Below, piece after piece: positions 3,846 to 33,264 of a DNA stretch of 33,264 nt. The position numbers and the translations under genes are program-made. Positions within the stretch are counted from its first letter, which is position 1. Every line of letters starts with the position of its first letter. The stretch is from an uncultured Erysipelotrichaceae bacterium. Its GTDB lineage: Bacteria > Bacillota_I > Bacilli_A > Erysipelotrichales > Erysipelotrichaceae. The DNA lies in NCBI GenBank assembly GCA_900320455.1, contig ONSK01000220.1, forward strand, positions 1-33,264, given 5' to 3'. Under the pieces are notes generated by a model. It was not told where the DNA came from. It was given only the letters and a program-made list of their open reading frames with translations, and did no database searches.

Positions 3846-5147
3846 TTACTTTTCAATGATTCCGACACGCTTGAAGATCTCATCGACTCTCTGTACGTGA
3901 TAGGACGTATCGAAGCAGTCATCGATCTCTTCCGGTGTCATCACGTCAGTGACCTCTTTGACACCTTCCATCAGCTCACGGAAGTTGAGGTTGTTTTCCC
4001 ATGCCTTGATTGCCTGCGGCTGCACGGTGTCATATGCCTTTTCACGTGTCCAGCCTTTCTCAACAAGCTTGAGCATGAAGCGCTGTGAGAAGATGACGCC
4101 GTTTGTCTTCCAGATATTGCGTTCCATGTTTTCCGGGAAGACCGTCAGGTTCTTGAGGATTCTGCCGAATCTTGTCAGCATGTAGTCCAGCAGCGCTGTT
4201 GCGTCCGGCGCGATGATTCTTTCAGCGGAAGAATGGGAGATATCACGCTCATGCCAGAGAGGGACATCCTCATAGGCTGTGACCATGTATCCTTTCAGAA
4301 CACGGGCGCATCCGCAGATATTCTCCGAACCGATCGGATTTCTCTTGTGCGGCATCGCGCTGGAGCCCTTCTGTCCCTTGTTGAAATGTTCTTCCGCTTC
4401 ACGGACTTCCGTTCTCTGCAGATGACGCACTTCCGTTGCCATCTGTTCCAGTGTGGCGCCGATCAGCGCAAGTGTTGCGAAGTAGTGCGCATGGCGGTCT
4501 CTCTGCAGCACCTGTGTGCTGATGGCAGCGGAATGAATGCCGAGCTGCTCGCATACGTAGTCCTGCACAAACGGCGGAATGTTGGCGAATGTGCCGACAG
4601 CACCGGAGATCTTGCCTGCCTCAACATCTGCCGCAGCGAGATCAAAGCGCTCAAGATTGCGCTTCATTTCCTCATACCAGAGGGCAAACTTCATGCCGAA
4701 GGTTGTGATCTCGGCATGGACGCCGTGTGTTCTTCCCATGCAGATGGTATCCTTGTATTTCAGCGCGTTCTCACGCAGGATCTCCATGAAATCAACGATA
4801 TCCTGACGGAGAATTGTATTTGCCTGCTTGAAGCGGATGCCGTTTGCCGTATCGACAACGTCAGTGGAAGTCACGCCGTAGTGGACCCACTTCTTTTCCG
4901 GTCCGAGGCTTTCTGAGACACATCTGGTAAATGCCACGACATCATGTCTTGTCTCCTGTTCGATCTCGAGGATCCTGTCAACGGAGAAGCGGGCATTCTG
5001 GCGGATTTTTTCGACATCTTCCATGGGAATCTCGCCAAGCTTTGCCCACGCTTCATCGATCAGGATTTCCACGTCAAGCCATGCCTGGAATTTGGCTTCC
5101 TCACTCCAGATGTCACGCATTACTTTTCTTGAATATCTTTCCAGCAT
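3846..5147 (-). CDS. purB: Adenylosuccinate lyase
   Basis: This 433-residue member of the fumarase/aspartase superfamily cleaves SAICAR and adenylosuccinate, acting in both purine synthesis and AMP formation. The signature loop [11 protein letters not shown], with the catalytic serine, lies near residue 270, and GRTHGVHAE around 140 carries the catalytic histidine. [13 protein letters not shown] near 90 and [11 protein letters not shown] near 310 are also conserved. Length is typical. The ATG has an AAGGAGG ribosome binding site. Only about 50 bases separate it from the upstream lipoprotein gene, and a terminator-like hairpin sits there, so its transcription source is unclear: either read-through or a promoter inside the upstream gene. 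Confidence 0.96.
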
Positions 5148-5167
5148 ATTTATGTCCTCCTTGGGGA

Positions 5168-5192
5168 AAGAAAAGACTCTTAAAAAGAGTCT
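5168..5192 (-). terminator. Terminator-like hairpin between the DUF4358-like gene and purB
   Basis: On the minus strand a perfect 8-bp stem, AGACTCTT/AAGAGTCT, closes a 3-base loop and is followed by TTTTCTTT. It ends the scpA-scpB-lipoprotein unit. It is only about 20 bases before the purB start, so it could also act as an attenuator of read-through into purB. Confidence 0.75.
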
Positions 5193-5196
5193 CTGG

Positions 5197-5667
5197 TCAG
5201 TTGCTGAAAGCCTTATCGGCTGTTGTCTTGGCTGCTTCGATATCGTTGCAGATGATGATTACCACAATGTCCTTGCCGTACTCCTTGATCAGGGCGTGGG
5301 AAATCTTGAACACTTCTTCCTGTGTGTAGACCTCCGCCTGCTTCTTGATCGTTTCGACGTAGTTGTTCAGATAGGTCTTGCACTTTTCAACATCAGTTGT
5401 TCTGAAGACACCGACCGTATCGGACTTGCCGTCATTGTTCAGATAGACAGTACCTTCTGTGACGGTTTCCTTGTCCATGTCAAAAAAGTATCCGTACATT
5501 GTTCTTTCCTGAATCTCAGCTACCGTATCGCTGAGTCCGAGATCAGAAACAAGCTTCGCAGCCATATCCTTTACCTGGATATCTGTCGTCGTGTCTTCTT
5601 TCTTTCCGCCGCATCCGCTCAGTACCATCAGTACTGCAACAAGGCTAATCACAAATCTCTTTAACAT
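5197..5667 (-). CDS. DUF4358-like lipoprotein
   Basis: This 156-residue protein has a short signal peptide ([15 protein letters not shown]) ending in a lipobox LSGC with the lipidated cysteine at 19, so it should be anchored on the outer face of the membrane. The mature part resembles DUF4358 proteins: an MYGYFFD segment, a strand around VGVFRTTD, a helix with [16 protein letters not shown], and a C-terminal strand IVVIIICND. The function of this family is unknown. The ATG has a GGAGGAGG site and lies inside the end of the upstream GDSL gene (23-base overlap), so the two are made together. An intrinsic terminator follows the stop. Confidence 0.75.
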
Positions 5668-6388
5668 ATTCCTCCTCCTTCACTGCATGTGTTCTGATAT
5701 ATTCGGACAGAGCTTTTGTGCCCTCGGTATTGAGGTGCAGTCCGTCCCATACATAATCGCTTCTGACAAGTCCCGTATCATCCGTCAGTGCCGGATCAGG
5801 ATTTATATAGTACAGATGCTTATCGATCGCAAGCTCGCGGATGGCATCATTCAGTTTCTTCACCTGGGTGCGCATCTGTTCTTCGCTCAGGCCTGAGATC
5901 GTGCGCGGCATGTATGACTGGATCATGTAGATATTGACATCCGGATGCTTTTCCCTGATCTCGTCGATCATCGTTCCGGCTTCCTTGATCCATGAGGCGA
6001 AGCTGTCTGTTCTGACCTCATTGATGCCGATCATCACATACAGATATTTCTTCTTTGAGTTCAGCATCAGATCATAGAGGGAAGATTCACTGTCTTCCGC
6101 CTTCATGTCATAGATACGCCACAGTGACAGAGATTCGGCATACCAGATCTCCGCTCCTGCCTTCTTCAGATCGGAATACAGATACAGGCTGCCCATGCGT
6201 GAATCACCGGCAAACAGCGTATCCGCGAAATACAGATCCTCAGCACGTTCTGTCTCAGGAACCTCTGAAGCATAGTCATAATAGTTCACATATCTGCATG
6301 TGTAAGTGTTTTCTTCTTCCGCTGTATTTTTCCCTGTGCATCCGAGCGCAAGACAGGAAACAGCGGCGATAATCAGACTCTTCTTCAT
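5645..6388 (-). CDS. SGNH/GDSL-like lipoprotein hydrolase
   Basis: This 247-residue protein has a lipoprotein signal peptide with lipobox LALGC (cysteine 17). The SGNH-type motifs are visible: FAGDSRMGSL near residue 60 (nucleophile Ser), MIGINEV near 118 and DGLHLN near 216 (catalytic Asp and His). Such enzymes deacylate esters; extracellular members often act on O-acetylated polysaccharides or peptidoglycan, but the substrate cannot be read from the sequence. The start overlaps the scpB stop (ATGA), and the end overlaps the DUF4358-like lipoprotein, so these two lipoproteins form the distal part of the scpAB transcription unit. Confidence 0.8.
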   Translation of the reverse strand: MKKSLIIAAVSCLALGCTGKNTAEEENTYTCRYVNYYDYASEVPETERAEDLYFADTLFAGDSRMGSLYLYSDLKKAGAEIWYAESLSLWRIYDMKAEDSESSLYDLMLNSKKKYLYVMIGINEVRTDSFASWIKEAGTMIDEIREKHPDVNIYMIQSYMPRTISGLSEEQMRTQVKKLNDAIRELAIDKHLYYINPDPALTDDTGLVRSDYVWDGLHLNTEGTKALSEYIRTHAVKEEEYVKEICD

Positions 6389-8891: not shown

Positions 8892-11294
8892 TCAGCCGAC
8901 AACGATATTAACGATTTTGTTCGGAATCACGATGACCTTGCGGATCTGCTTTCCGTCTGTGTATGCCTTGATACTCTCAAGCGCGAGAGCTTCCTTCTCG
9001 AGGATTTCCTTGTCCGTGTCCTTGTTGACGCTGAACTTGCCTCTGAGCTTGCCGTTGACCTGAACGGCGATCTCGATCTTTCTGACCTGCAGAGCCTCTT
9101 CACTGTAGGAAGGCCACGGCTCATACGCGACTGTGTCTTTTCCTGTGTAGGAAGTGAAGATTTCCTCGCAGATATGCGGTGTGATCGGGCTCAGCACCTT
9201 GATGAAGTCGATGATCATGTTTCTGTTCACCTTTTCTGCCTTGTAGCAGTCATTGATGAAGATCATCATCTGGCTGATCGCGGTGTTGAAGTTGAGAGAG
9301 TCAATATCGTCTCCGACCTTCTTGATCGTGTAGTTGAACACATAGTTCAGATCCGGTGTTTCCTCATCCGTGATCTTTTCCGGCATTTCCATGCACAGAC
9401 GCCATACACGGTCGATCCACTTCTTCGCGCCTTCTACGCCCTGTTCGCTCCAGGGCTTGCTGGCCTCAAGAGGTCCCATGAACATTTCATACAGACGCAG
9501 TGTGTCAGCGCCGTATACGTCAACGATGACATTCGGATCAACAATGAATTCCGGATATCTCTTGCCCATCTTGATGCCGTTGGCACCGAGGATCATACCC
9601 TGGTGGACAAGCTTGGCAAACGGTTCCTTGACCGGAACAATTCCCTTGTCATAGAGGAAGTTGTTCCACATGCGGCTGTACAGCAGATGGCCGACAGCGT
9701 GCTCCGGCCCGCCGACATACAGATCGACAGGCATCCAGTGCTTCATCAGTTCCGGATCAGCGATCGCATTGTCATTGTGCGGATCGATATAACGTAGGAA
9801 GTACCAGGAGCTTCCGGCGCTGCCCGGCATTGTGCTTGTCTCGCGCTTTCCGGGCTTTCCGTCAATCTCCGTGCGCACCCAGTCTTCCGCTTTCTCCAGC
9901 GGGGATGCGCCGGACTTGGAAGGCTTGTAGTCGCTGAGTTCCGGCAGGATCAGCGGCAGCTGATCGAGCGGCAGCGCGACAAGGCTGTCATCTTCCAGGT
10001 GAACGATCGGAATCGGTTCACCCCAGTAACGCTGACGGGCGAAGATCCATTCACGGATTCTGTAGTTGACCTTCTTCTGGCCGAGGCCTCTTTCCTCCAG
10101 CCAGGCAATCATCGCATTGATCGCGTCTTCCTTGTTCATGCCGTCCAGGAAACCGCTGTTGATATGCGTGCCGTCTTCTGTCCAGGCTTCCACTTCAACA
10201 TTTCCGCCTTCGAGAACCGGAATGATCTCCAGTCCGAACTTCTTGGCGAAGTCATAGTCACGTGTGTCGTGGGCAGGAACTGCCATGATCGCGCCTGTTC
10301 CGTATGTCGCAAGAACATAGTCGGAGATCCAAATCGGAATCTTCTTGCCGTTGACCGGATTGATCGCGTATGCGCCGGTGAACACACCTGTCTTTTCCTT
10401 GTTCAGTTCCGTTCTTTCCAGATCTGATTTTGTCGAGCAGATTCTGACATATTCATCGACTGCTTCCTTCTGTTCCGGTGTTGTGATCTTTTCGACCAGT
10501 CTGTGCTCCGGAGCCAGTACGCAGTAAGTTGCGCCGAAGAGTGTATCGCAGCGTGTTGTGAATACGGTGAAGTCCTCATCACATCCGTCTACCGCGAATT
10601 TCACATGGGCACCGACGGATCTGCCGATCCAGTTGCGCTGCATTTCCTTTGTGCTTTCCGGCCAGTCGATTTCATCGAGCCCTTCCAGCAGGCGGTCGGC
10701 ATACTTGACGATGTCGATGACCCACTGCTTCATATTCTTTCTGACAACAGGATATCCGCCGCGTTCGCTCTTGCCGTCGATGACTTCATCGTTGGCAAGC
10801 ACAGTGCCGAGTTCCTCGCACCAGTTGACAGGCATATCAACGCATTTCGCAAGGCCTTCCTCAAAGAGCAGCGTGAAGATATACTGCGTCCACTTATAGA
10901 ATGACGGATCACATGTAGAGACGACTCTGTCCCAGTCATAGGAGAATCCGATGTTCTTCAGCTGTTTTGTGAAGAATTCGATATTGTCCTTTGTGAACTT
11001 CTCCGGATGGTTGCCGGTGCTGATCGCATACTGCTCTGCCGGCAGACCGAAGGAGTCAAATCCCATCGGATGCAGAACGTTGTATCCTTCCATTCTCTTC
11101 TTTCTGGATACGATGTCTGTCGCCGTATATCCTTCCGGATGTCCGACGTGCAGACCAGCTCCGCTCGGATACGGGAACATATCCAGGGCATAGAACTTCG
11201 GCTTCGCAAAATCCCATACATCAGTCTTAAAAGTTTTGTTTTCTTCCCAGTAAGTGCGCCATTTCTGTTCAACGGCCTTATGGTTGTATGCCAT
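8892..11294 (-). CDS. leuS: Leucyl-tRNA synthetase
   Basis: This 800-residue class I synthetase charges tRNA-Leu. The HIGH motif is HVGH (49-52) after PYPSGAGL. The CP1 editing domain shows [20 protein letters not shown]. The tryptophan-rich WYFLRYIDP region and a C-terminal anticodon-binding domain follow. The KMSKS loop reads KMGKR (575-579): Gly replaces the conserved Ser. The following YPEFIVDPN context otherwise matches LeuRS. A GGAGGAGA ribosome binding site precedes the ATG. A complete leucine T-box leader lies upstream, and the aldolase gene follows in the same transcript. Length is typical for bacterial LeuS. Confidence 0.98.
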
Positions 11295-11307
11295 ACTCTC
11301 TCCTCCT

Positions 11308-11338
11308 GATAAAAATAAAACGTCCTGTCTAAGGACGC
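11308..11338 (-). terminator. Regulated terminator of the leuS T-box
   Basis: CGTCCT pairs with AGGACG around a short loop, followed by TTTTATTTTT on the minus strand. Its 5' arm shares the CCT bases with the antiterminator, as expected for a T-box switch. Confidence 0.9.
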
Positions 11339-11513
11339 TGAATCACGCGGTACCACCTTAGTTTACGCATCTGTGGATGCATACCCTCAAATCCGATAAC
11401 GCCGGATCAGCATTCGCTCCAAAGGCCAGTTCACGGATTTCCCCACTCCGGCTTTCACCAACCGCCGTCTCTCTCTGCTATGTCCGTCCGCTACTATTCT
11501 TTTTCTACGCGAT
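11308..11513 (-). promoter_or_regulatory. Leucine T-box riboswitch (leuS leader)
   Basis: The minus-strand leader contains the T-box AAGGTGGTACCGCG (11346-11359), whose last bases pair with the tRNA acceptor end. A GAGAGA element and GGTGAAAGCCGG lie in stem I. The specifier is CTG (11427-11429) in the pattern GAA-CTG-GCCTTTGGAGC, a leucine codon that fits leuS. CTAAGG (11356-11361) can pair with CCTTAG (11329-11334) to form the antiterminator, which excludes the terminator stem CGTCCT/AGGACG. Uncharged tRNA-Leu(CAG) should therefore turn on leuS and the aldolase gene. This leader fills most of the non-coding stretch 11295-11609. Confidence 0.95.
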
Positions 11514-11519
11514 ATGAAA

Positions 11520-11548
11520 ATACTATCAGTTTACCTGCCAAACTGCAA
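11520..11548 (-). promoter_or_regulatory. leuS operon promoter
   Basis: On the minus strand -35 TTGCAG (11543-11548), a 17-bp spacer and -10 TAGTAT (11520-11525) with an upstream TGA (extended -10). The predicted start near 11513 sits just before stem I of the T-box. Confidence 0.7.
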
Positions 11549-11577
11549 TCATTTCGAGTACCATTTTTACAGCTTTC

Positions 11578-11586
11578 TGCTATCAT
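11578..11586 (+). promoter_or_regulatory. Possible puuD-like gene promoter
   Basis: TGC followed by TATCAT is a fair extended -10 with no clear -35. It would give a short leader holding GGAGA before the ATG at 11610. It lies back to back with the leuS promoter. Confidence 0.35.
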
Positions 11587-11609
11587 CTTTTCTATGGAGA
11601 AATAAAGCT

Positions 11610-12323
11610 ATGAAAAAACCTTTGATCGCACTCACAGCAAGAGACAAAACAGAGAACGATAACAGAATGTTTATCGACAACGAAAGCTACTATACATATA
11701 TTCAGAATGCCGGCGGAATTCCCGCTGTCATCATGGTCACAAGCGAAGAAGACGCCGAAGAGGCAGCAGAGCGTTTTGACGGACTTCTGATCACCGGCGG
11801 CGAGGATGTGGATCCTGCGCTGTATGGTGAAGAGAACAACGGGAGCTTCCCTGCTCCGGCGGATATCGACGCTTCTGATGCCATGCTGTTCAGAGCATTC
11901 AAAAAGGCAGGCAAGCCGATTCTCGGCATCTGCCGCGGCATTCAGGTCATCGCAGCCTGCGAAGGCGCAAAACTGATCCAGGATATTCCTACATACAACG
12001 GCGGATCCCATTACCAGTCACGTCTTGAACCGCCCATCAGCCGTGAGAAGCCGATGCACTCCGTAAAGATCTTCCCCGACACATTCCTTGCGGATATCTT
12101 CGGTGAGACAGCGGAAGTCAACTCCTTCCATCACCAGGCCCTGATGACGCTTCCCGAAGGCTATACACAGGCAGCGGAAAGCCCGGACGGACTGATTGAG
12201 GGAATGGAAAAGGACCAGGTCACAGCAGTGCAGTGGCACCCTGAGCGCATGGTCCTTGATGAAAAGCATCTTGAGATTGCGAAGCACTTCATCAACAGAT
12301 GCATTACTTGGCAAGACCGCTGA
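11610..12323 (+). CDS. Class I glutamine amidotransferase-like hydrolase, PuuD type (peptidase C26)
   Basis: This 237-residue protein resembles gamma-glutamyl-GABA hydrolase, which releases glutamate from gamma-glutamyl conjugates. The catalytic triad is visible: nucleophile C108 in ILGICRGIQV, and His and Glu in the AVQWHPE motif near residue 205. DGLLITGGEDVDP near 58 forms the oxyanion strand region, and SFHHQA is also typical. ATG 11610 was chosen because GGAGA lies 9 bases before it and the residues further upstream are not family-like; a longer reading from 11514 would run through the likely promoter. No other putrescine genes are nearby, so the substrate may be another gamma-glutamyl compound. 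Its 3' end overlaps the convergent HAD gene by 20 bases. Confidence 0.88.
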   Translation: MKKPLIALTARDKTENDNRMFIDNESYYTYIQNAGGIPAVIMVTSEEDAEEAAERFDGLLITGGEDVDPALYGEENNGSFPAPADIDASDAMLFRAFKKAGKPILGICRGIQVIAACEGAKLIQDIPTYNGGSHYQSRLEPPISREKPMHSVKIFPDTFLADIFGETAEVNSFHHQALMTLPEGYTQAAESPDGLIEGMEKDQVTAVQWHPERMVLDEKHLEIAKHFINRCITWQDR

Positions 12324-28278: not shown

Positions 28279-28875
28279 TTATCTGTGCAGAAGCGGTGAT
28301 ACTTTCTTGTAGAGCAGCGCGGTGATAACGCTGACGATCACACCCTTGATGAAGTTGAATGGAACCGTTCCGTATACGACGAGTGTTCCGATATCCTTGA
28401 TGCCGGCAATCGCGCTTGCCATGCCGAGGATTGCTTCCATGCCAAAGGCTGCGGAATAAACCGGAATCAGCACGAAGTAGTTGAACAGCGCTCCGACAAC
28501 CGTCATGGTGATCGTTCCGGCGCAAAGACCGATCACAGCGCCTTTTCTTGTCTTGCGGAACTTGTATACAAGACCTGCCGGGATAACAAGTGCAGCGCCG
28601 ATCGTGAAGTTGGCAAGTTCGCCGATGCCGAGTGTTGTCGTCGGCTTGATCAGGAATTTCACCAGGATCTTGACGCCTTCGATCAGAACACCCTCTGCCG
28701 GGCCCATGGCGAATGTGCCAAGCAGTGCCGGAATGTCGCTGAAGTCAAGCTTGTAGAATGTCGGGAACGGAGGAATCACGAATTCCAGATACATCAATGC
28801 GCCGGCAAGCGCGCCGAGCACTGCGATTCTGGCAATCGATCTGACCGAGAAGAATACTGAAGCTTTGTTTTCCAT
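28279..28875 (-). CDS. ribU: Riboflavin ECF transporter S component RibU
   Basis: This 198-residue membrane protein has about six hydrophobic helices. The segment MYLEFVIPPFPTFYKLDFSDIPAL near residue 28, split here as YLEFVIPPFPTF and KLDFSDIPALL, is the hallmark of RibU substrate-binding subunits of ECF transporters, which take up riboflavin with a shared EcfAAT module encoded elsewhere. An FMN riboswitch with its own terminator directly precedes the gene, which supports the assignment independently. The gene is a single-gene transcript ending at a strong terminator. No riboflavin synthesis genes are in the window. Confidence 0.95.
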   Translation of the reverse strand: MENKASVFFSVRSIARIAVLGALAGALMYLEFVIPPFPTFYKLDFSDIPALLGTFAMGPAEGVLIEGVKILVKFLIKPTTTLGIGELANFTIGAALVIPAGLVYKFRKTRKGAVIGLCAGTITMTVVGALFNYFVLIPVYSAAFGMEAILGMASAIAGIKDIGTLVVYGTVPFNFIKGVIVSVITALLYKKVSPLLHR

Positions 28876-29138: not shown

Positions 29139-30119
29139 TTACGCGGTAAGCAGCGTTTTCATCAGTTCGATGATATCGGCGAACGCGAAGCCGGCAAACT
29201 TGATGCCTGCCAGGGCAAACAGGAATGTCAGTACCAGCATGCAGATAATCTGCACGGTCTTGGGCATCGCGAGGAACAGGTCCATGCTGTAGCCCTTGAG
29301 CATCAGTCCGGTAACGCATGCCGCAGCAAACAGCGCTGTCGCAAGTCCTGCGTTGAAGTGAAGCAGAACACAGCTGAGAATCATCAGGACGCCTGTGAAC
29401 ACGCCTCCTCTGCCGTTGATCTCCGTGATCTTGACAGCCTTGACAGGTCTTTTCATGAAGCCGCTGACAATGCTCAGAAGGAAATCTCCGAGGTATTCCG
29501 CTGCCAGGCAGAATACGCAGATCTTTAAGGCCATCAGAACCTCAGAAGTGAAGTTCATCCGGATGAAGCCGTAAGCTTCGGTATTGATCAGCATCTTTGC
29601 GGCTGACGCGAAGAACCATCCGAAAGCAAACCATTTGATCACGTTGATCAGCAGGATACTCATGGCGCTGATCGTCAGATCATCGATCATCGATACCTTT
29701 TCCATCGCATATCCCGGATTGACAAGCATCTCGACAACACTGGAACGCGGGGTATCGATCAGATCCTGCACTGCTTCTTCCTTCTGTTCGGCAATGCGCT
29801 CTTTTCTTGTCTTCGGCATTCCTTCTGCCGCGATATTCTTTTTCTCTTCTTCCGAAAGGACCTTTTCGGTATACAGAAAGCTGCTGAGCTTTCCGCCGAG
29901 ACCCTTCGGCTCAGCCTTGACTTTCTTTGTTTCAGCAGCTGCTGTCCTGACGACTTCCGGCGCAGGTGCTGTCTGCTGTATTGTTTCCGTCACCGCTTCA
30001 GCGGCAGCCGGTTCTGACGCATGTCTGTAGCGCACATGTCTGTATGCCACAGCGCGTTTTCTGTTTTCCACGGGAGTATTTGAACGTTTTCCCCTGGCTC
30101 CCAAATAAACTCTGGTCAT
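29139..30119 (-). CDS. Polytopic membrane protein with basic N-terminus, unknown
   Basis: This 326-residue protein starts with a strongly basic stretch (many Arg and Lys in the first 35 residues), then a charged Ala/Glu/Lys-rich linker. From about residue 155 five hydrophobic helices follow, with short loops containing KRPVKAVKITEINGRGG. The overall layout recalls Yip1-type membrane proteins, but I see no diagnostic motif, so I leave it unassigned. ATG 30119 was chosen because GGAGGTGAT lies just upstream; an ATG seven codons earlier precedes that site. It lies between the efp terminator and its own terminator, and no clear promoter was found. Confidence 0.75.
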   Translation of the reverse strand: MTRVYLGARGKRSNTPVENRKRAVAYRHVRYRHASEPAAAEAVTETIQQTAPAPEVVRTAAAETKKVKAEPKGLGGKLSSFLYTEKVLSEEEKKNIAAEGMPKTRKERIAEQKEEAVQDLIDTPRSSVVEMLVNPGYAMEKVSMIDDLTISAMSILLINVIKWFAFGWFFASAAKMLINTEAYGFIRMNFTSEVLMALKICVFCLAAEYLGDFLLSIVSGFMKRPVKAVKITEINGRGGVFTGVLMILSCVLLHFNAGLATALFAAACVTGLMLKGYSMDLFLAMPKTVQIICMLVLTFLFALAGIKFAGFAFADIIELMKTLLTA

Positions 30120-30149
30120 TCCATCACCTCCATACTGCATTAATCAACG

Positions 30150-30182: not shown

Positions 30183-30740
30183 TTATGCTCTTCCAGAATA
30201 CTTTCCGTCAAGTGTGGAAATGATAACCATTTCACCGTTCTGAATAAAGAGCGGGACCTTGATTTCAAGCCCTGTCTCAAGAACGGCATTCTTTGTGGCG
30301 GAAGTTGCCGTATCGCCCTTGACTGCCTGTTCGCATTCCGTGATCTGCAGTTCAACCTTATCGGGAAGAATGACACCCAGGATCTCTTCTCCGTACATGG
30401 AGATGAAGACGTTGTCATTGACCTTCAGGAACTGCATTTCCCATTCCAGACGCGTCTTGTCGATTTCAACCTGATCATATGTGTTTGTATCCATGAAGAC
30501 GAGGTTTGTTCCGTCATCATACAGATACTGCATTTCCTTCTTCTCGATGTGGGCAAGTTCAACCTTGTCACCGCCGGTGAAAGACATTTCATTGATAACA
30601 CCAGTGCGGACGTTCTTTACCTTGACCTTGATGATCATCTGACGCATCGCTGTCTTGTTGTGGTCGACATTGATGACTGTCAGAATGTCATTGCCGTATT
30701 CAAACGTCATTCCCGGTTTCAGATCATTTACAATTACCAT
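30183..30740 (-). CDS. efp: Elongation factor P
   Basis: This 185-residue three-domain protein binds stalled ribosomes at the E site and promotes peptide bonds at polyproline stretches. The N-terminal KOW-like domain (1-63), the KVRTG-type KNVRTG motif and the C-terminal end DGKYSGRA are characteristic. An ungapped comparison from memory with Bacillus subtilis EF-P places Met at position 32, where that protein has its modified Lys; the loop reads NKTAMRQ instead of KPGKGAA. Modification by the usual lysine routes is therefore not possible at that site. AGAGG precedes the ATG, and a good promoter lies upstream. The Pro-Thr-rich PBP in this window is a plausible client. Confidence 0.96.
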   Translation of the reverse strand: MVIVNDLKPGMTFEYGNDILTVINVDHNKTAMRQMIIKVKVKNVRTGVINEMSFTGGDKVELAHIEKKEMQYLYDDGTNLVFMDTNTYDQVEIDKTRLEWEMQFLKVNDNVFISMYGEEILGVILPDKVELQITECEQAVKGDTATSATKNAVLETGLEIKVPLFIQNGEMVIISTLDGKYSGRA

Positions 30741-32064: not shown

Positions 32065-32367
32065 TCAGTCGATATACGCCTGTCCGTTGGAAATCGTCAG
32101 ATGCTTTGAACCATCGCATGTAAGCTGATCACTGCTTAAAAAGCCGGCACTGACAAGATCGGAGACACTGGACGGGAATGCATCGTATTCCAGCTTGTAC
32201 TGCAGGATCGCCGCGTCAGCCACCTTTTCAATGGCCTTGCAGCCTTTGCTGTTGACAACTGAGAGTGTCTTCTGGATATTCGGCACAGTCAGAAGAAACA
32301 GCACGCTGACAATCAGTACGACGATTGTCATTTCCAGCAGCGTAAATCCTTTGTTGTTTTTGATCAT
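32065..32367 (-). CDS. comGC: Major competence pseudopilin ComGC
   Basis: This 100-residue protein is the main subunit of the competence pilus that binds and pulls in DNA. The class III prepilin signal MIKNNKG is followed by FTLLEMTIVVLIVSVLFLL, with cleavage after G7 and Glu at +5. Cys residues in SKGCKA and LTCDGS match the pair seen in ComGC proteins. The ATG at 32367 has GGAAGTGAT in front; longer upstream readings are antisense or out-of-frame with comGB. It starts about 20 bases after comGB and is followed by comGD. Confidence 0.93.
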   Translation of the reverse strand: MIKNNKGFTLLEMTIVVLIVSVLFLLTVPNIQKTLSVVNSKGCKAIEKVADAAILQYKLEYDAFPSSVSDLVSAGFLSSDQLTCDGSKHLTISNGQAYID

Positions 32368-32387
32368 ACGTATCACTTCCTTTCTTT

Positions 32388-33264
32388 TTACAGATTCTGC
32401 ATCATCTTCATCGGCATCAGCATCACCAGATACACAAATACGATCATCACGCCGATCACGGCATAGGAGAGCAGCTGAACGGCTGAGGAGAAGCGGCGGA
32501 TCAGCGTTTCCGTCCTGAGACTGCTCATCTGCAGATATCCTTCCAGCATCTTTTCGCACTGCGAGGCATGAAATGCCGTTCTGAGAAAACGGGACAGCGA
32601 AGGATCCACGTCAATGGCAGACACAGCCGTTTCAAAATCACTGCCGTGTGAAAGCATTCTGTCCATCTCTTCCGCGATCAGTCCGACAAGCGGCTTGCCT
32701 TCCAGGTTCTGTAACAGATGCAGCGTATTGATCGTTGAGATATTGCGCCTGACGCATTCCAGGTAATAGCGGGAAAAGTCTTCCGAGGCATGGCGTATCA
32801 TCAGGATTCCCCTGTTATGTGCCGCAAGAAACAGATATGTTTTCCGGATCCGTTTCGGACGGGTACAGAATACCGCAAGCAAAGATCCTGCAAGAAAGAG
32901 AACAAACAGGACCGCCGAGACGGTCTGAATCAGAATGCGCACGCCGTCCAGTCCTCCTTCCGTCACATGGAAACTCGCCAGCAGGCTGATCATCCGCGGC
33001 AGAACAAAGGACGAAAACAGACAGATCCCGGCCAGTGTTCCGCACATCATCAGGATCGGATACAGCATCTGCCTGATGATTTTCTGACGGATCTGTTTCT
33101 CATTGGCCATGACTGTCATCGAAAGCGAGAGCGCCTGATGAAACGGCAGCACCTGCAGGAAACCATCCATGACATTTCCCAGTCCGCGCGTCAGCAGTGA
33201 TGGAAAGAATGATGCCAGCTGTTCTCCTTTCGCGAGACGCTCACGGACCAGCGTGAACGCATCC
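32388..33264 (-). CDS. comGB: Competence pilus membrane platform protein ComGB, 5' end outside the window
   Basis: At least 291 residues of a type II secretion F-domain (GspF/PilC) protein are present. The frame remains open without a stop to the right edge, so the internal ATG at 33170 is not the start. The region before it (RERLAKGEQLASFFPSLL) matches the family. Three hydrophobic segments are visible: around LYPILMMCGTLAGICLFSSF, around ILIQTVSAVLFVLFLAG and the C-terminal YAVIGVMIVFVYLVMLM. ComGB supports assembly of the pseudopilus with the ATPase ComGA, which should lie beyond the edge. Confidence 0.92.
   Translation of the reverse strand, partial: DAFTLVRERLAKGEQLASFFPSLLTRGLGNVMDGFLQVLPFHQALSLSMTVMANEKQIRQKIIRQMLYPILMMCGTLAGICLFSSFVLPRMISLLASFHVTEGGLDGVRILIQTVSAVLFVLFLAGSLLAVFCTRPKRIRKTYLFLAAHNRGILMIRHASEDFSRYYLECVRRNISTINTLHLLQNLEGKPLVGLIAEEMDRMLSHGSDFETAVSAIDVDPSLSRFLRTAFHASQCEKMLEGYLQMSSLRTETLIRRFSSAVQLLSYAVIGVMIVFVYLVMLMPMKMMQNL

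Follow-up and report, generated by a model that had tools for sequence, protein, structure and literature searches.

The efp gene of the window and its tip residue

The window, a stretch of 33,264 nucleotides from an uncultured Erysipelotrichaceae bacterium, contains a single gene for EF-P, a factor usually described as needing a modified tip. Its tip residue is a methionine. The locus is laid out as follows.

28279..28875, minus strand: ECF transporter substrate component (PF12822), syntenic; downstream marker of the comG-efp locus
29139-30140, minus strand: hypothetical protein, unmatched in Pfam and NCBIfam, encoded between the ECF transporter gene and efp
30183..30740, minus strand: efp with a methionine tip, 185 amino acids (TIGR00038; three Pfam domains; synteny with comG, ECF transporter, cmk and der in relatives)
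30309..30317, minus strand: GDT motif of the domain 3 loop, residues 142-144, lining up with the loop by which E. coli EF-P reads the E-site codon
30639..30659, minus strand: NKTAMRQ, residues 28-34, beta3-beta4 loop region (direct reading; loop 30-34 in the model; motif found in 95 loci)
30642..30644, minus strand: Arg33 codon, +1 from the tip (direct reading)
30645..30647, minus strand: Met32 codon, loop tip, where PGKG-type EF-Ps have Lys (ungapped alignment with EF-Ps of the PDB; model)
32065..32559, minus strand: comGC-like pseudopilin (PF07963), syntenic in relatives; upstream marker of the ancestral comG-efp locus (the frame includes upstream codons)

The protein scored 219.3 bits against the curated efp profile TIGR00038 (cut-off 185.8) and matched all three Pfam EF-P domains (PF08207, PF01132 and PF09285); it fell below the cut-offs for EfpL (126.4 versus 216) and YeiP (107.4 versus 264.05). 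In ungapped phmmer alignments Met32 falls over the Lys of PGKG in the EF-Ps of S. aureus (6rk3, 6rji) and C. thermocellum (1yby). The AlphaFold model (mean pLDDT 89) has a strand at 18-29, a loop at 30-34 (T-A-M-R-Q) with Met32 as its middle residue, and a strand at 35-43, and matches 6rk3 from end to end (residues 1-185 on 1-185, 185 aligned, Z 19.6, rmsd 2.3). By alignment, model and comparison with 6rk3, the window protein thus has the fold and the loop register of solved EF-Ps. The first-pass annotation had put Met32 at the site of the modified Lys32, in an NKTAMRQ loop with Arg33 one residue away. The alignments and the model bear out the first point and direct reading the second, and the structure-based comparison, which the annotation had named as able to refute its claim, has Met32, not Lys or Arg, at the loop tip. 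The Lys of P-G-K-G is absent from the window copy, which reads TAMRQ, and is present in a second copy carried by relatives; nor is the tip the Arg of rhamnosylated Arg-type EF-P. We agree with the annotation that the known modification chemistries for Lys and Arg are unable to act on Met.

Comparison of neighbourhoods showed that the efp gene at the comG-efp locus encodes a Lys tip in family f10, an Arg tip in f2 and a Met tip in f1 (family codes are internal labels, f1 being the window's family). Since the same neighbourhood holds Lys, Arg and Met versions, the window gene, judged by gene order, is an ordinary vertically inherited EF-P whose lysine was lost. Synteny rules out a horizontal origin. 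The hypothetical protein at 29139-30140 is poorly conserved or absent in relatives.

The loop itself is strongly conserved. Among the related EF-Ps retrieved, all those of the same genus that are at least 72% identical to the window copy carry NKTAMRQ, and the 95 NKTAMRQ copies in all loci read are encoded by 61 different 21-base sequences, indicating that conservation acts at the protein level and that the protein motif is under selection. All 121 distinct Met-type EF-Ps share NKTAM and carry a basic residue either one or two positions after the Met; four of them, with NKTAMAK loops, have Ala at +1. The source assembly is fragmented (329 contigs) and 80.7% complete, which would favour a sequence error, a pseudogene or a misaligned loop. 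These readings are ruled out by the recurrence of the loop in 95 loci with 61 DNA versions and by the ungapped alignment and the model, both of which place Met32 at the tip; we give them practically no credence. Close relatives with Lys at position 32, which the annotation had named as a sign of such an error, did not turn up: wherever the loops of close kin were read, the residue is Met or Arg.

Tip types across the class

Our class-wide draw comprised 296 genomes, of which 290 gave an EF-P match, and loops were read for part of them; G256, which gave no match for EF-P, YnbB, HemL, ValS, YebC, the ABC-F C-terminal domain or EpmA, was left out of the counts. Among the loops read, methionine tips occur in f1, f8, f19 and f23, and arginine tips in f2, part of f1, f5, f16, f9 and one f11 genome. 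In most other families read, the vertical copy as a rule has the Lys of PGKG. Family f23 consists of code-4 genomes of 0.5-1.4 Mb, many of them below 1 Mb, which, from the code and genome size, we take to be mycoplasma-like relatives of M. pneumoniae and M. genitalium. EF-P was found in 29 of the 30 f23 genomes searched, one copy each, and all 29 proteins read NKTAMR, even at 36% overall identity.

Other loop forms were also seen. An Asn tip stands in a VKSANSM loop at L182 and L227 (families f17 and f15). In f21, five EF-Ps (L230, L231, L237, L238, L240) have tip-less loops, about four residues shorter, in which NKVAY or NKTAF leads directly to the following strand; three f21 genomes with such loops (G210, G293, G315) also gave a canonical KPGKG copy. 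Neither a protein query nor TIGR00038 detected any EF-P in G049, G163, G169, G189 and G224, which are 93-98% complete.

We built two trees, both without the tip-loop columns and the domain 3 loop columns. In the 73-row tree the Met and Arg types of f1, f2, f5, f8, f16 and f19 form one Lys-free clade (SH-aLRT 99), the single f23 row being a long branch outside it. The 57-row tree, with 11 f23 rows, recovers a Lys-free Met/Arg clade with the same SH-aLRT of 99 and f23 inside. On these two trees the clade of the window would, most simply, have lost its modifiable tip lysine once. Neither tree settles the order of Met and Arg within the clade. The Arg tips of f9 and f11 fall outside it, indicating that the lysine was also lost elsewhere.

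A second, Lys-tipped EF-P and its neighbours

A second EF-P is encoded in many relatives. Its identity with the window copy is 34-40%, and its loop reads KPGKGAAILKTK or a close variant. It is present in 17 of the 40 readable Erysipelotrichales genomes of the class draw (27 from f1 and 13 from f2). In all 24 loci the next gene after the second efp, in the same orientation, encodes an SDR reductase; the distance is mostly no more than 100 bases, but about 590 in L274. A YnbB-like enzyme is encoded within the fetched stretch in 19 of the 24; in G268 and G167 ynbB lies outside that stretch, farther along the same contig. YnbB (E < 1e-100) was found in 17 of 17 f1 and f2 genomes with the second copy and in none of the 23 without it (p 1e-11, kinship ignored). 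G154 was counted among the latter, since its extra EF-P match is a piece of 47 residues that contains GDT and is no Lys-type protein. In f12 the SDR adjoins YnbB in four of four loci read, once next to the single Lys-type efp, and at the same threshold no YnbB was found in the f5, f8, f16, f19 and f23 genomes of the class sample.

Two genes of this kind are present in the window's own assembly (G000), on another contig; an example of the complete arrangement comes from L245.

L277 (contig C15, 6902 bases), 4888-6147, plus strand: ynbB (PF06838, 498.9 bits; the family may be wider than YnbB)
L277 (contig C15), 6144-6890, minus strand: SDR gene, the contig ending 12 bases before its start
L245:7677-8234: Lys-type second efp, example

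Contig C15 thus ends where the Lys-type efp lies in kin of G000. The second efp of G000 was not seen, nor was any fragment of it elsewhere in this 80.7%-complete assembly. Given the contig end and the gene order in kin, it most likely fell into an assembly gap, and the cell from which the window comes probably has both a Met-type and a Lys-type EF-P. Contigs also break inside the second efp in three more same-genus assemblies (L285, L286 and L287, from G004, G013 and G016), so that four same-genus assemblies have a contig end in or at this gene, as if it were hard to assemble from metagenomes. A genome without any modification genes is ruled out by ynbB and the SDR gene on C15. The first-pass annotation had left two choices: either EF-P goes unmodified, or polyproline stalling is solved in some other way. 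This alternative stands for genomes in which the Met-type protein is the sole EF-P; for the window's genome it is incomplete, because that genome carries ynbB and the SDR gene, and in all 24 related loci the SDR gene adjoins one for a Lys-tipped EF-P.

YnbB and YmfI are reported to be required for 5-aminopentanol on Lys32 of B. subtilis EF-P, and the study that reports this also saw hydroxypentanone, at +100.05 (Witzky 2018, PMC5885033). We infer that the efp-SDR-ynbB cluster makes a Lys-type EF-P and would modify it by a route akin to the 5-aminopentanolylation of B. subtilis, with no recognisable GsaB. Searches for homologues of epmA, earP and ymfI, which the annotation had proposed, gave no EpmA above the curated cut-off of 286.9 in the 296 class genomes, G000 being 80.7% complete (2 of 14 controls exceeded it), and no EarP in the 296, where no control genome matched either; as for YmfI, the SDR is present and scores below the NCBIfam cut-off of 238 (172.7 in G000, 166.3 in G121). 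The HemL model TIGR00713, used as a proxy for GsaB, had no match in G000 or in G121, a single-contig genome, 99% complete, that carries the second copy. It exceeded its cut-off only in G036, G219, G033 and G028 of 54 hand-picked genomes and did not track the second copy. Because the SDR falls below the YmfI cut-off and no GsaB/HemL-type match was found, a distinct modification of a related kind is likelier than 5-aminopentanol itself as the product.

The SDR and YnbB-like genes might instead form a metabolic cluster unrelated to EF-P modification. The SDR indeed scores as a general FabG-like reductase, under every curated cut-off shown, a PnuC-type transporter gene often lies upstream, and GsaB is missing. 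Against this reading, efp and the SDR gene adjoin in 24 of 24 loci, the second copy and YnbB co-occur all-or-none in f1 and f2, the SDR stays beside YnbB in all four f12 loci, once adjoining the single Lys-type efp, and YmfI and YnbB are known pathway genes. We therefore consider a purely metabolic role distinctly unlikely.

Several further features of these loci may be noted. At L245:6390-7604, and in most second-copy loci, the PnuC-type transporter gene immediately precedes the second efp. In L252 (G025), positions 9109-11825 encode decarboxylase-like (Orn/Lys/Arg type by eye) and radical-SAM-like proteins between the efp-SDR pair and ynbB. At 1e-30, NCBIfam gave no family for either the decarboxylase-like protein or the YnbB-like protein. 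G032 (f2; L106, L253), listed as 100% complete, has the Lys-type second EF-P only, with no vertical copy found. Support for transfer of the second-copy module between f1 and f2 was weak (f2 rows as one clade, p-AU 0.032).

Function of the Met-type EF-P and comparison with known systems

The two copies differ in domain 3 as well. In E. coli EF-P, residues G144-G148 of domain 3 loop I are reported to touch the E-site codon, D145 and T146 contacting its bases (Sieber 2024, PMC11611912). The corresponding motif in 162 Met or Arg rows is GDT in 153, GNT in six, GNS in two and GDS in one; all 26 second copies have GAPS or GAPT in its place. GDT is missing from a few further Lys-type EF-Ps as well. 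The pattern suggests that one copy would read the codon without a modifiable tip and the other would do the reverse. Neither appears to be always needed, because G032 has the second copy only and 12 of the 27 readable f1 genomes, each at least 95% complete, have the Met-type as sole EF-P. We raise, tentatively and with some doubt, the idea that EF-P has split in two: a codon-reading EF-P whose Met or Arg tip cannot be modified, and a cluster-modified Lys-tipped EF-P without codon reading, each serving different sets of proline stalls, while mycoplasmas and many Erysipelotrichales would make do with the first.

As to the Met-type protein itself, the PGKG loop would have been replaced in this clade by a Met or Arg loop, TAMRQ in the window, and the factor probably works with its tip unmodified. 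On the ribosome it would sit beside peptidyl-tRNA-Pro, domain 3 reading the E-site codon, while the unmodified Met tip and the basic residue that follows press on the CCA end; the shape of the loop would stand in for the missing side-chain extension. Such a factor would act alone in many species and be supplemented in the window's genome by the Lys-type EF-P. Polyproline must still be translated in these bacteria: 53 genomes gave a ValS match, and in all 30 of the loci read the protein retains PPPNVTG. The searches for ValS, HemL, YebC and ABC-F covered the same 54 hand-picked genomes, mainly from f1 and f2, not a random draw.

The Met-type EF-P might, alternatively, no longer rescue polyproline stalls and use its codon-reading domain to bind ribosomes in a different and milder role, leaving polyproline to YebC, ABC-F proteins and, in genomes that have it, the Lys-type EF-P. 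YebC is present in 52 of the 54 genomes and the ABC-F C-terminal domain in 43, a spread that means the Met-type EF-P need not be the polyproline factor; G032, moreover, keeps the Lys-type copy only. E. coli EF-P with K34M is reported inactive, which points the same way; changes of P32 and G33 in that loop are reported inactive too (Volkwein 2019, PMC6544042), so that the loop perhaps functions only as an intact unit. Loss of rescue is harder to reconcile with the 12 f1 genomes and all 29 f23 genomes with EF-P in which the Met-type is alone, or with a Met loop that is invariant rather than decaying. The ABC-F misses include all f5, f8, f16 and f23 genomes tested, among them the f8 and f23 genomes G102, G143, G163, G235 and G291. 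EF-P is also reported to occur in all Mollicutes and to be essential in M. genitalium and M. pneumoniae, while homologues of the modification enzymes YjeK, YjeA and YfcM are reported to be absent from Mollicutes (Grosjean 2014, PMC4014445). On balance we hold loss of rescue to be unlikely.

An enzyme not yet known might, on the other hand, modify the tip, on Arg33 or on Met itself. Every Met-type protein has a basic residue at +1 or +2, and Arg-tipped relatives exist. The Ala at +1 in the four NKTAMAK proteins speaks against such a modification, as do the absence of EarP from the 296 genomes (for what a search with no matching control can say) and the lack of YnbB in f5, f8, f16, f19 and f23, and we judge it very improbable. 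The account that we consider probable as a whole is that the window encodes the vertical Met-type EF-P of a lysine-loss clade, working unmodified; that the Lys-type EF-P is modified by its own cluster; and that the second efp of G000 lies in an assembly gap.

The Met/Arg clade offers natural experiments, as it includes genomes with the Met-type only, the Lys-type only, both, or neither detected (five, at least 93% complete). The separate contributions of tip modification and E-site codon contact become testable, as does the need of minimal genomes of the mycoplasma kind for any EF-P chemistry, and efp-SDR-ynbB is a compact cluster for reconstituting an unsolved EF-P modification pathway.

A search of openly licensed papers gave no account of a single Lys-free clade, of a second Lys-type EF-P with SDR-ynbB, or of the exchange of GDT for GAPS or GAPT. 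Met-tipped EF-Ps as such were already known, at 0.77% of 1166 EF-Ps in one survey (Volkwein 2019, PMC6544042). In those surveyed, as in the window EF-P, Met forms the tip and position -2 is never Pro (Volkwein 2019, PMC6544042; Sieber 2024, PMC11611912); the available text of these surveys differs from the present account in describing no single Lys-free clade with Arg types and mycoplasma-like EF-Ps and no link to a second Lys-type EF-P. With the 5-aminopentanol system of B. subtilis (YnbB, GsaB, YmfI) the second copy shares the PGKG Lys tip, a YnbB relative and an SDR reductase; it differs in the gene cluster, the SDR score below the YmfI cut-off, the lack of a GsaB-type match and the replacement of GDT by GAPS or GAPT. 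The EF-P of the actinobacterium Corynebacterium glutamicum (PDB 6s8z) reportedly works unmodified, by a proposed stiffness of the loop, and is said to keep Lys there, in contrast to the Met of the window EF-P. E. coli EfpL (YeiP) is a paralogue of EF-P reported to be active with an unmodified R33 tip alongside a modified Lys-type EF-P (Sieber 2024, PMC11611912). Unlike EfpL, the unmodified-type copy of the window is the vertical EF-P, not a paralogue, and its modelled loop is not lengthened. The Met-type EF-P most likely works unmodified, as reported for R33 of EfpL.
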